61,659 nt of DNA from Clostridia bacterium (GTDB lineage: Bacteria > Bacillota > Clostridia > Christensenellales > Borkfalkiaceae): assembly GCA_017448355.1 (NCBI GenBank), contig JAFSLQ010000011.1:1-61659 (forward strand). Reading direction: 5' to 3'. Of the stretch, positions 7,921 to 61,459 are shown one piece after another. Positions within the stretch are counted from its first letter, which is position 1. Each line of letters starts with the position of its first letter. Both the position numbers and the translations under genes were made by a program. The notes below the pieces were generated by a model that was not told the origin of the DNA, searched no databases, and was given only the letters and a program-made list of their open reading frames with translations.

Positions 7921-8010
7921 CTAATGAAAGTCCAATCGGGTTGAGCATCATAGAGAGGCTTGATTGGATCTCTCAATAATATTATATGCCATAGAATCGA
8001 GAAAAATACT

Positions 8011-24656: not shown

Positions 24657-24772
24657 TGGCAGAGGGGATAGGATTCGTCTCTCTCGAACCTCCCGCAAAA
24701 CAGTCCACAGGACTGTTTTCTTGCCTTCGGCAAGCACGCCGTAAACGGCTGGCTCCTAATTCGAATCCTATC
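24657..24772 (-). repeat. tRNA-tail-capped multi-hairpin element, copy A
   Basis: Read on the minus strand: left arm GATAGGATTCGAA (24772-24760, the inverted T-arm of tRNA-Ser); hairpin GCCG/CGGC (24749-24738); hairpin CTTGCC/GGCAAG with a 3-nt loop (24734-24720); 10-bp hairpin AAAACAGTCC/GGACTGTTTT with a TGT loop (24719-24697); GCGGGAGGTTCGAGAGAGA; then 21 nt (24677-24657) identical to the tRNA-Ser 3' end from T-loop C56 to CCA. The outer stem GATAGGATTCG/CGAATCCTATC is perfect. ORFs over it are not coding. Copy B at 60888 shares the inner sequence but carries tRNA-Thr arms. Confidence 0.85.
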
Positions 24773-24824: not shown

Positions 24825-24912
24825 TGGCAGAGGGGATAGGATTCGAACCTACGAGAGATTTCTCTCTACTCGCTTTCCAAGCGGGCACATTAGACCACTC
24901 TGACACCCCTCC
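24825..24912 (-). tRNA. tRNA-Ser (GGA anticodon)
   Basis: 88 nt including encoded CCA. Acceptor GGAGGGG pairs with CCCCTCT, discriminator G, anticodon loop CTTGGAAAG (GGA), long variable arm (TAGAGAG...CTCTC) typical of class II serine tRNA, T-arm GTAGG-TTCGAAT-CCTAT. The anticodon stem has one C-A mismatch (CCCGC against GCGAG). Reads UCC/UCU codons. Confidence 0.95.
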
Positions 24913-40041: not shown

Positions 40042-40059
40042 ATACGTGGTAATTAAATT

Positions 40060-40272
40060 ACGGATAGAGGCGCAATCTTTATGATAAGCACTTCGGGGTG
40101 GATTTGCCGAGTGTGGGAAAGGAAAGATTGCCGAAGAGATGCGTTCTTCCACGGGGCGGATTGTCTGGGTGCAAAAAGAATATTTTTGCAACTGTCATAC
40201 CGGTTTCGGTATGTTGTGCTACCAAACTTTGTCGAGATTACGGCGTTTAGTAGCGTCGTGATTTTTTATTTT
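40060..40272 (+). ncRNA. Lysine riboswitch (L-box) with terminator
   Basis: Conserved L-box pieces appear in order: GGATAGAGGCGCAA at the start, GATAAGCA, a GGGAAAGGAAAGATTGCCGAAG block, CTGGGTGCAA and CTGTCATACCGG. They are followed by an expression platform with a terminator stem ACGGCG/CGTCGT and ATTTTTTATTTT (40240-40272). Lysine binding should stop transcription before the NhaC-family gene, marking that gene as a likely lysine transporter. Confidence 0.88.
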
Positions 40273-43172: not shown

Positions 43173-43179
43173 TTACGTA

Positions 43180-43272
43180 TAGAGTAGCAAAGATGCGTAA
43201 AGTGTTGCAAAATGGGATGTCGTTTGCAAACGAAAAGAATTTTTCTTGCGGTATCTTTGCGCGTCCGCTATT
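43180..43272 (+). ncRNA. Tetrahydrofolate (THF) riboswitch
   Basis: AGAGTAGCAAAGATGCGTAA, then AGTG, GGGATGTCG, AACGAAAAG, CTTGCGGTATCTTTGC and GCGTCCGCT reproduce the THF-I aptamer in order, with pairing CAAAGAT/ATCTTTG. It lies before an ECF folate-transporter S-component gene, its classical target. Downstream platform: hairpin GACGGG/CCCGTC and a TCTCTC/GGGAGA stem followed by seven T's, which includes the Shine-Dalgarno. Confidence 0.9.
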
Positions 43273-60757: not shown

Positions 60758-60833
60758 GCTGGTGTGGCTCAGTCGGTAGAGCAGCTGATTCGTAATCAGC
60801 AGGTCAGCGGTTCAAGTCCGCTCACCAGCTCCA
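60758..60833 (+). tRNA. tRNA-Thr (CGT anticodon)
   Basis: 76 nt with encoded CCA. Acceptor GCTGGTG/CACCAGC, D-arm GCTCAGTCGGTAGAGC, anticodon arm GCTGATTCGTAATCAGC (CGT), T-arm AGCGG-TTCAAGT-CCGCT. Reads ACG. Confidence 0.96.
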
Positions 60834-60838
60834 CGAAA

Positions 60839-60876
60839 AGAAAAACCCGTCCTTATAGGTCGGGTTTTTCTTTTTG
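60839..60876 (+). terminator. Terminator of tRNA-Thr
   Basis: AAAAACCCG...CGGGTTTTT with inner CC/GG pairs, then CTTTTT. Confidence 0.9.
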
Positions 60877-60887
60877 TAAAAATATGT

Positions 60888-61005
60888 AGCGGACTTGAAT
60901 TAGGAGCAAGCAACCAAAGGTTGCGCACTTGCCTATGGCAAGAAAACAGTCCTGTGGACTGTTTTGCGGGAGGCTCGAGAGAGGCAAGTCCGCTCACCAG
61001 CTCCA
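60888..61005 (+). repeat. tRNA-tail-capped multi-hairpin element, copy B
   Basis: Left arm AGCGGACTTGAA (60888-60899, inverted T-arm of tRNA-Thr), then TTAGGAGC as in copy A; hairpins GCAACC-AAA-GGTTGC (60910-60924), CTTGCC-TAT-GGCAAG (60928-60942), and the 10-bp AAAACAGTCC/GGACTGTTTT (60943-60965); GCGGGAGGCTCGAGAGAGG. It ends with 21 nt (60985-61005) identical to tRNA-Thr 60813-60833 from C56 to CCA. The first hairpin differs from copy A in both arms but keeps pairing. Confidence 0.88.
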
Positions 61006-61043
61006 AAACAACACCCCGTCCGATTTGGACGGGGTGTTGTTTT
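61005..61043 (+). terminator. Terminator of copy B
   Basis: AAAACAACACCCCGTCC-GATTT-GGACGGGGTGTTGTTTT (17-bp stem). Confidence 0.9.
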
Positions 61044-61064
61044 GGATATGATTAACAAAGAGAC

Positions 61065-61186
61065 AGCGGACTTGAATGGGGAGACACGAGACGCAGTCGA
61101 AGTGGTTTGCCAAGCAAACCGAAAGGTAGATACCTACCTTTCGTCGGAGAAGGGCGCACAGGCGCCAAGTCCGCCCAGTAGTTCCA
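61065..61186 (+). repeat. tRNA-tail-capped multi-hairpin element, copy C (divergent)
   Basis: Left arm AGCGGACTTGAA (61065-61076); hairpins GGTTTGC-CAA-GCAAACC (61104-61120), GAAAGGTAG-ATAC-CTACCTTTC (61121-61142), GGCGC-ACAG-GCGCC (61153-61166). The last 21 nt (61166-61186) read like a tRNA 3' end from C56 to CCA, but with CCCAGTAGTTCCA, not the tRNA-Thr acceptor. The inner sequence is unlike copies A and B although the layout is the same. Confidence 0.8.
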
Positions 61187-61191
61187 AAGAA

Positions 61192-61230
61192 GTGGGTCGA
61201 AAAGTCTTTATGTCTTTCGACCCATTTTTA
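61192..61230 (+). terminator. Terminator of copy C
   Basis: GTGGGTCGAAAG-like arm pairs with CTTTCGACCCA, then TTTTTA. Confidence 0.85.
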
Positions 61231-61459
61231 CATATTTTTAGGCGAAAACTAGCGATTTTGAACGTCATTGAATTTCAAGTGTCTTTTTTTATTTGCAAAA
61301 AATCAAAAAAACACCCTACCTACACACATAGATAAGGTGGGTCAAAATGTGAAATGAGCGGGATTTGAACCTATATAGATTGAAAAATAAAATAAAATGT
61401 GGTACAATAAAACACATAACAAAATATTTATAAATCGTTATTTAAATTTTCAGGTGTAA
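61231..61459 (+). other. Gene-free stretch with a T-arm relic and a promoter
   Basis: No gene. GAGCGGGATTTGAACC (about 61356-61371) is the inverted T-arm and 3' strand of some tRNA, possibly the left arm of another decayed element. A promoter TTGAAA (61380-61385), 17 bp, TACAAT (61403-61408) serves the next gene. Confidence 0.55.

Follow-up and report, generated by a model that had tools for sequence, protein, structure and literature searches.

Three-hairpin units with ends fitted to the neighbouring tRNA recur behind tRNA genes of Clostridia

When islands integrate into tRNA and tmRNA genes, the tRNA gene stays intact and a fragment of its 3' end is displaced behind the insert (PMC4383910). 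Phage Ms6 recombines in the T-loop of a tRNA-Ala gene and needs 100% identity over a 26-base core (PMC1762012). REPs are presented as short extragenic hairpins of 20-40 bp that carry a GTAG or CGTC tag and are possible mini-transposons (PMC3733652). Here we describe hairpin units behind a tRNA-Thr gene and a tRNA-Ser gene of one window, by which we mean the whole stretch of DNA analysed, 61,659 bases long and comprising the entire contig C4 of a 1.94 Mb source genome in 60 contigs. The features are as follows.

60758..60833, + strand: tRNA-Thr(cgt), the host gene; the tail sequence corresponds to its final 21 nt, C56-CCA (60813-60833).
60834..60887, + strand: first terminator-like hairpin (term1) and spacer, from the tRNA to copy B.
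60888..60899, + strand: 5' arm of copy B, AGCGGACTTGAA, the exact reverse complement of tRNA-Thr positions 54-65.
60900..60984, + strand: body of copy B, with TTAGGAG, three short-loop hairpins and GCGGGAGGCTCGAGAGAGG.
60985..61005, + strand: tail of copy B, CAAGTCCGCTCACCAGCTCCA, 21/21 to the 3' end of tRNA-Thr(cgt).
61006..61064, + strand: terminator-like hairpin 3' of copy B and spacer up to copy C.
61065..61076, + strand: 5' arm of copy C, AGCGGACTTGAA.
61077..61165, + strand: body of copy C, of a second subtype: TGGGGAG ... TCGGAGAAGGGCGC ACAG GCGC.
61166..61186, + strand: tail of copy C, CAAGTCCGCCCAGTAGTTCCA, 20/21 to the GCTACTG/CAGTAGC allele of tRNA-Thr(cgt).
61187..61230, + strand: terminator-like hairpin 3' of copy C and beginning of the flank; the same flank stands directly behind tRNA-Thr in genome G128 and farther downstream of it in G130.
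24825..24912, - strand: tRNA-Ser(gga), host gene of a third copy.
24657..24771, - strand: third copy, behind tRNA-Ser(gga), with its arm (24771-24760, ATAGGATTCGAA) and body.
24677-24657, - strand: tail of the third copy, CGAATCCTATCCCCTCTGCCA, 21/21 to tRNA-Ser(gga).

The two tandem units of arm, hairpins, tail and terminator that the initial annotation reported after tRNA-Thr are read directly from the DNA, with a full match of copy B's tail to the tRNA and a terminator-like hairpin after the tRNA gene and after each of the two tails. The tail of copy C had been attributed to a different tRNA. It belongs instead to another allele of tRNA-Thr(cgt), the one with the GCTACTG/CAGTAGC acceptor, which is present in G006, G119, G124, G130 and G131; to the tRNA-Thr tail of its own locus it is identical at 17/21 positions. 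The DNA 3' of copy C aligns over 120-135 bases with the DNA directly after tRNA-Thr in G128, whose own tRNA-Thr tail matches that of copy C at 17/21. In G130 the flank aligns further downstream of tRNA-Thr and not directly behind it, and it was not seen in G131, G119, G124 and other genomes with that tRNA-Thr allele. Since both tail and flank match other forms of tRNA-Thr, copy C is probably the record of an earlier form of this locus. Folding z-scores were -4.17 for copy B and -4.63 for copy C. The outer stem that was said to have been rebuilt from the T-arm is present in the predicted minimum-energy fold of copy B alone and absent from that of copy C alone. A scan of the window with Rfam at gathering scores gave 5 matches, none overlapping the elements; they include a lysine riboswitch (40057-40229, +), a THF riboswitch (43178-43272, +) and an abiF RNA (7931-7967, -). 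A GTGGGTCAAAATGTG-type sequence with an inverted T-arm (GGGATTTGAACC) after it stands behind several tRNA genes or tails, at 61335-61380 of the window and also at L083 and L043, and is perhaps the start of a further element family.

The source genome carries more copies behind tRNA-Lys(ctt) and tRNA-Lys(ttt), as well as at sites without an adjoining tRNA, and model R1 gave 7 matches in it at E up to 1e-4. A census of the genus with the core pattern, allowing up to 2 mismatches, returned 52 matches in 23 of 44 genomes and none in the other 21, and the backwards pattern gave 1 match; the early expectation of many copies is thus borne out. Searching genome_contigs with the 19-nt core yielded 45 stretches, of which 37 in Clostridia-type MAGs were kept (records titled Clostridia, Clostridiales, Eubacteriales or Christensenella, with ruminant in 20 titles) and 8, one of them a Lachnospiraceae record, were dropped as chance matches with tails unlike tRNA. 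Most genomes used are MAGs by title, in which repeats can be misjoined. Under stricter filters, model R1 matched 6 of 396 genomes of the order, 4 of this genus and 2 of other families. In G193, from another family, the match lies behind a tmRNA gene and both arm and tail fit that gene; at this locus (L267) two units with GAGAGTCGAAC arms and tails containing GACTCTCCCCACCTCCAC follow the tmRNA gene. The exact 19-nt core was absent from IMG/VR contigs, and copy B had no match in phage and plasmid collections. We found no description of the element in the open-access PMC literature, which does not in itself show its absence from print. Apart from the element as a whole, a hairpin that would encode a EPPAKQSTGLFSC-type peptide occurs in 10 viral contigs. 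A AAACAGTCCNGTGGACTGTTT hairpin is found in viral contigs L279-L288, in several of them as GCGCCCGGAAAACAGTCC..TTTTCAGCGAGACGC and in four copies in L282; ARAGORN detected no tRNA gene in these ten viral stretches, and a broader family of repeats may have this hairpin in common as a module.

From the arm to tail base 10 the element measures ~100-109 nt, with three hairpins and GGAG islands, and a unit of terminator, 5' arm, hairpin body and one tail measures ~150-190 bp. At the core-search loci the distance is narrow, 128-172 nt with one at 304. The tail ends in CCA at base 21 in 32 of these 37 loci. Copies lacking a tRNA 3' tail, which had been named as a refuting case, thus occur as exceptions only: 5 of the 37 have no CCA at the 21st base, one of them cut by the contig end. 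A tRNA lies within 1.5 kb upstream in 25 of the 37 loci (Ser, Gln, Val, Leu, Arg, Met, Pro and Thr), and in 20 of these 25 the tail is identical to it at 21/21 positions; of the other five tails, three match at 19-20 of 21, one is broken (15) and one is cut by a contig end (16). In a set of 121 distinct tRNA genes biased towards element-bearing loci, the last 16 nt of the tRNA recur as a direct downstream copy (up to 2 mismatches, within 350 nt) in 50, two of which, tRNA-Lys neighbours, score through the element of the next tRNA. The same 121 genes gave no inverted downstream, direct upstream or inverted upstream copy.

The left border of the tail was examined in a likewise biased sample of 53 copies, of which 25 belong to family 1, 9 to the ACAG subtype and 19 to other inserts. 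Identity to the tRNA begins exactly at C56 in all 25 family-1 copies, a sharp border that agrees with the targeting of the segment from T-loop to CCA first proposed for copies B and C. In the ACAG subtype identity starts at position 56 (5/9) or 57 (4/9), and in the other inserts at 56-61 (16/19) or further left (55, 35 and 34 in the remaining three). The idea that all other inserts share the same docking rule was not upheld, as two of them, the tRNA-Met inserts of G024 and G103, continue to tRNA position 34-35. Tail-ended inserts whose bodies are, by eye, unlike family 1 were noted in the source genome (L087, L091, L020, L028, L032 and L039), and similar ones at L239, L242, L244, L252, L256, L069, L198 and L199; examples of their bodies are GACGCGATTGA..GTAGCAATCGCTATTCCGTCGC and ACGGCAACCCCTTTGTC..GGGGAATT. 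A possible mirrored form was seen by eye upstream of tRNA-Asn (L008) and tRNA-Pro (L067 and L069), where a copy of the 5' part of the tRNA is followed by a body containing a AAACAGTCC..GGACTGTTT hairpin, which deviates by one base in L069, and by an arm complementing the D-stem side.

Both ends of the element follow the neighbouring tRNA. Comparison of 24 of the 29 elements with an upstream tRNA (omitted were 3 with broken tails, 1 cut by a contig end and 1 out of register) gave mismatches at 4 of 504 positions between tail and tRNA and at 18 of 240 between arm and tail complement. Tails stay identical to their own tRNA even where species differ, for example at Leu(caa). The initial observation that arm and tail are fitted to the adjacent tRNA therefore extends beyond this locus. 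It had also been proposed that the body of a tRNA gene was replaced and its T-stem kept, in which case the arm would be a leftover. Imperfect complementarity between the two T-stem strands made 18 of 29 rows informative: the arm complements the 3' strand in 12 of them, equals the 5' T-stem strand in none and agrees with neither in 6, and it is therefore not a remnant of a tRNA body. A leftover T-stem of a duplicated tRNA is ruled out on the same count, and in the pair of G089 and G024 described below the unit stands beside an intact tRNA. A tRNA-like RNA that borrows CCA-end processing, also suggested in the initial annotation, would need an acceptor stem whose 5' strand pairs with the CCA tail; in the 29 rows the nucleotides ahead of the arm do not generally match that strand, and a few copy 1-3 of its bases.

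Closely related bodies make the refitting of the arm visible. In 19 disjoint pairs with close bodies (97 differences in 1575 body positions), 114 arm positions faced conflicting demands from the two tails, and the arm carried the base of its own tail at 88, that of the other at 17 and neither at 9; this count includes four pairs containing a broken-tail copy and one pair, L176/L158, with a one-base register error (5 own, 5 other, 2 neither). In G052 the elements at Leu(tag) and Leu(cag) have bodies with 1 difference in 79, and their arms follow their own tail at 8/8 positions. Some arms lag behind their tail, as in L123/L066 (own 4, other 2 of 6). Tails thus track the tRNA more closely than arms, for which continued conversion or selection may also be required.

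Evidence for movement comes from a filled and an empty site. In G024 a terminator directly follows tRNA-Met, and after it comes an older insert with a long fragment of tRNA-Met at its end. In G089 a family-1 unit stands between tRNA-Met and this same sequence, which is colinear with the post-tRNA sequence of G024 from the first base after the second tail, terminator and older insert included. Compared in this way, the pair shows a unit of terminator, arm, hairpins and one tail added at the 3' end of the tRNA, and by analogy the first terminator-like hairpin of our locus was probably carried by unit B. At tRNA-Thr, the sequence after the tail in G072 and the sequence after the tRNA in G096 are identical over the first 22 bases; in G072 the element is preceded by just a 45-base 3' fragment of tRNA-Thr. 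We also asked where the nearest body of each element lies, using 38 elements out of 46; L002 was dropped, as were elements to which no tRNA was assigned, and the tRNA type was taken from the tail where the contig has no tRNA. The sum for nearest bodies in the same genome at another tRNA was 5.0 against a shuffled mean of 0.83, with 1 of 500 shuffles as high, and the sum for another genome at the same tRNA type was 9.0 against 2.81, with 2 of 500 as high. Both classes exceed the shuffles, so both movement and inheritance are seen, and the suspicion of mobility that accompanied the first description of the locus gains from the G089/G024 pair and from the nearest bodies at other tRNAs of the same genome.

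The terminators speak less clearly. For 34 of 55 bearing loci, those with at least 2 element-less comparators (at least one comparator, L050, has a broken-tail element), the ancestral terminator was assigned to the second position in 5, to the first in 3, to both in 2 and to neither in 24. If the terminator is carried along, recent copies should resemble each other in it, and by eye the terminators beside units are dissimilar among copies of one genome, which counts against a mobile element. Finally, 13 core matches in 11 loci were rescanned for further copies of their own tail. None was found in 8; for the other 5 a copy within the T-arm of a tRNA or tRNA fragment lies 161-169 nt upstream, and in one case a further copy, with 2 mismatches, lies downstream.

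Taken together, the units have a sharp border at C56, a fixed orientation, hosts of many tRNA kinds, an arm complementary to the local tail and one clear filled/empty pair. We lean towards reading them as a small mobile element, non-autonomous and directed at the segment of tRNA genes from T-loop to CCA, with an arm rewritten by template switching. Insertion would place a unit of ~150-190 bp such that the tRNA keeps an intact C56-CCA and a second 21-nt copy ends up behind the element. An enzyme acting in trans, perhaps a tyrosine integrase adjoining tRNA genes, would cut in the T-loop. The tail could arise as in tRNA-integrating islands, from a regenerated gene end and a displaced end, or as a long target duplication, and template switching within an imperfect inverted repeat, the mechanism known as quasi-palindrome correction, may then rewrite the 5' arm to match the new tail. 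The conserved folded strand might be what the enzyme or a partner recognises. In G000, 12 integrase matches were obtained, 8 of them over the cut-off, and a tRNA gene is present in 5 of the 12 loci. The element itself is not linked to any enzyme. Since an enzyme of the Ms6 type needs identity over its full 26-base core, hopping among different tRNAs would be hard for it. As an observation in its own right, a 501-aa large serine recombinase (PF00239, PF07508, PF13408) in G000 ends just before a family-1 copy (L090, C14, 2934-3035), and this contig has another, of 499 aa, behind tRNA-Ser(gct).

A bolder version of the mobile-element reading, which we regard as doubtful, holds that the element moves between tRNA (perhaps tmRNA) genes while re-templating its own ends, taking C56-CCA of the target as its 3' end and the complement as its 5' arm; the sense strand, once folded, would then always close on local tRNA sequence. 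Other hairpin bodies may dock alike, and the mirrored form may use the tRNA 5' end.

The units could alternatively be eroded remnants of islands or phages that integrated into tRNA genes, the tail being a displaced fragment and there being no element of its own. A regenerated gene with a displaced fragment is what defines islands in tRNA and tmRNA genes (PMC4383910); the integrase loci with a tRNA gene in G000 and the 19 of 53 tail copies that belong to inserts unlike family 1 point the same way. For the tRNA-Met inserts of G024 and G103, whose identity reaches 34-35, this account does hold, as they look like displaced ends of anticodon-loop islands. Fragments of tRNA-Met with 98-100% identity, extending from roughly the anticodon loop as far as CCA, were also seen in G089 (C20:395-444, C7:91-137, C4:5-51), G127 (C3:4537-4582) and G024 (C4:122191-122232); they are probably the displaced ends left by islands or phages whose integrases use the anticodon loop. 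Erosion does not account for the family itself, in which 23 of 44 genomes share one folded body, repeated at many tRNAs with a narrow distance and tail-fitted arms, and we judge it improbable there.

Integron attC sites are folded single strands with arms around a variable middle. If the units were integron-like cassettes, the folded strand would act as attC and the T-loop as attI, and some cassettes would hold genes. This is compatible with the two arms around a hairpin-rich middle, with the newer unit of the G089/G024 pair being the tRNA-proximal one, with folding of the sense strand and with G134, where a GNAT acetyltransferase gene (PF13302 and PF00583 over cut-off; L190, C42, 2458-2904, -) stands between two tRNA-Met tail copies. 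Against it, none of the 10 integrases scanned among the 12 of G000 reaches the cut-off of TIGR02249 (best 68.8 versus 265 bits), attC core sequences are not evident by eye, and G134, the only case to suggest a gene between tails, is a single MAG contig with a repeat of ~85 nt and possibly a misassembly. We consider cassettes very unlikely. In the same contig an ornithine cyclodeaminase gene follows the second tRNA-Met tail copy.

Casposons insert at tRNA 3' ends with target duplication. A Cas1-type, casposase-like insertion that duplicates the tRNA end, as CRISPR adaptation duplicates the repeat, would leave a duplication bounded by T-loop and CCA much like the one seen. Cas1 (PF01867) was found in just 3 of the 44 genus genomes (G072, G118 and G127) and was not found in G000, G052 and G089, each of which carries 4-5 core matches. 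This explanation is largely refuted, and we give it hardly any credence.

The main rival to the mobile element is a structured RNA with a function of its own, transcribed when the polymerase reads through from the promoter of the tRNA; its closing stem would be built from the tRNA 3' strand and its CCA tail would serve 3' processing or pairing with the 5' acceptor strand. The unpaired islands GAATTAGGAG and CGGGAGGCTCGAGAGAAGC are conserved while the hairpins vary in sequence, and tails keep their tRNA identity, across species too. The consensus structure of 46 sequences has 96.3% of cells paired, and sliding the partners abolishes the signal. In it, both sides had changed in 157 cells, compared with 46.5 in shuffles, and the covariation score was 0.373 against 0.152, with 0 of 500 shuffles as high in either case; weaker measures gave 12 pairs (40/500 shuffles as high) and 37 pair types (65/500). 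These values lean towards the structure, since it was derived from the same MAFFT alignment. Wobble pairs favour the tRNA-sense strand in P1 (18 G.U versus 5 A.C, p 0.011), in distinct hairpins (32 versus 17, p 0.044) and in all hairpins (38 versus 23, p 0.072), the p-values being only guides because the element sequences are related. Covariation and sense-strand wobbles fit an RNA or a folded DNA strand.

Several results weigh against the RNA. A promoter-like score of at least 9 in the 60 nt before the arm was found in 2 of 46 elements (shuffled 16%), and in the 70 nt before tRNA genes in 85 of 149 (shuffled 34%). A terminator-like hairpin precedes 25/25 elements in a loose test that 81 of 125 shuffles also pass. 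The predicted fold of copy C lacks the outer stem, and nearly half of the genus genomes (21/44) have no core-pattern match. We therefore think a functional RNA unlikely. A guide RNA, with the 3' tail as guide after a T-rich motif, was considered only, and there the arm would sequester the guide; a retron-like reading with the arms as a1/a2 was likewise considered only.

Were the units indeed mobile, a gene-less element of less than 200 bp would have colonised many tRNA genes with both ends fitted to the target, a new answer to the problem of harmlessly targeting a conserved gene family, and old tails and lagging arms would reveal the origin of a copy from its sequence alone. Were they RNAs, a tRNA-matched RNA would stand behind many tRNA genes, and we found no such regulator described. 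Under either reading, tail and arm together offer a natural record in which template switching at inverted repeats can be studied.

How, then, do the units compare with described systems? With casposons they share insertion at tRNA 3' ends and duplication, and differ in that Cas1 is confined to 3 of 44 genus genomes, for which reason Cas1 or a casposase was set aside. In contrast to integron cassettes, the arms match tRNA T-arms and family-1 units are too short for a gene; no integron integrase was found among the 10 G000 matches scanned. Rickettsia palindromic elements and mitochondrial double-hairpin elements are mobile hairpins tolerated in or near genes, a likeness that ends there, as we know of no duplicated tRNA tail or tRNA-refitted arm in either. 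Short hairpins are shared with REP/RAYT systems, and GGAG beside the hairpins recalls REP tags as a resemblance only. REP palindromes of 20-40 bp are unlike an element of ~100-109 nt with three hairpins and GGAG islands, and to our knowledge REPs have no tRNA tail. RAYT was set aside for G000, where the single Y1 match is partial: it lies in a 58-aa frame and covers positions 79-119 of a profile of 121. Closest are the tRNA/tmRNA islands (Islander), which have in common with our units an intact tRNA, a displaced direct 3' fragment, a crossover region in the T-loop and the use of both gene kinds; an intact tRNA with a direct displaced fragment is found at 50 of 121 genes of the biased set and at copies B, C and Ser. 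Unlike such islands, the units are ~150-190 bp long, which leaves no room for an integrase gene of their own and places them outside the islands in this respect; the same body occurs at many different tRNAs, and the 5' arm is complementary to the displaced tail. With many tRNAs and fitted ends, the units exceed the known frame of T-loop integration.
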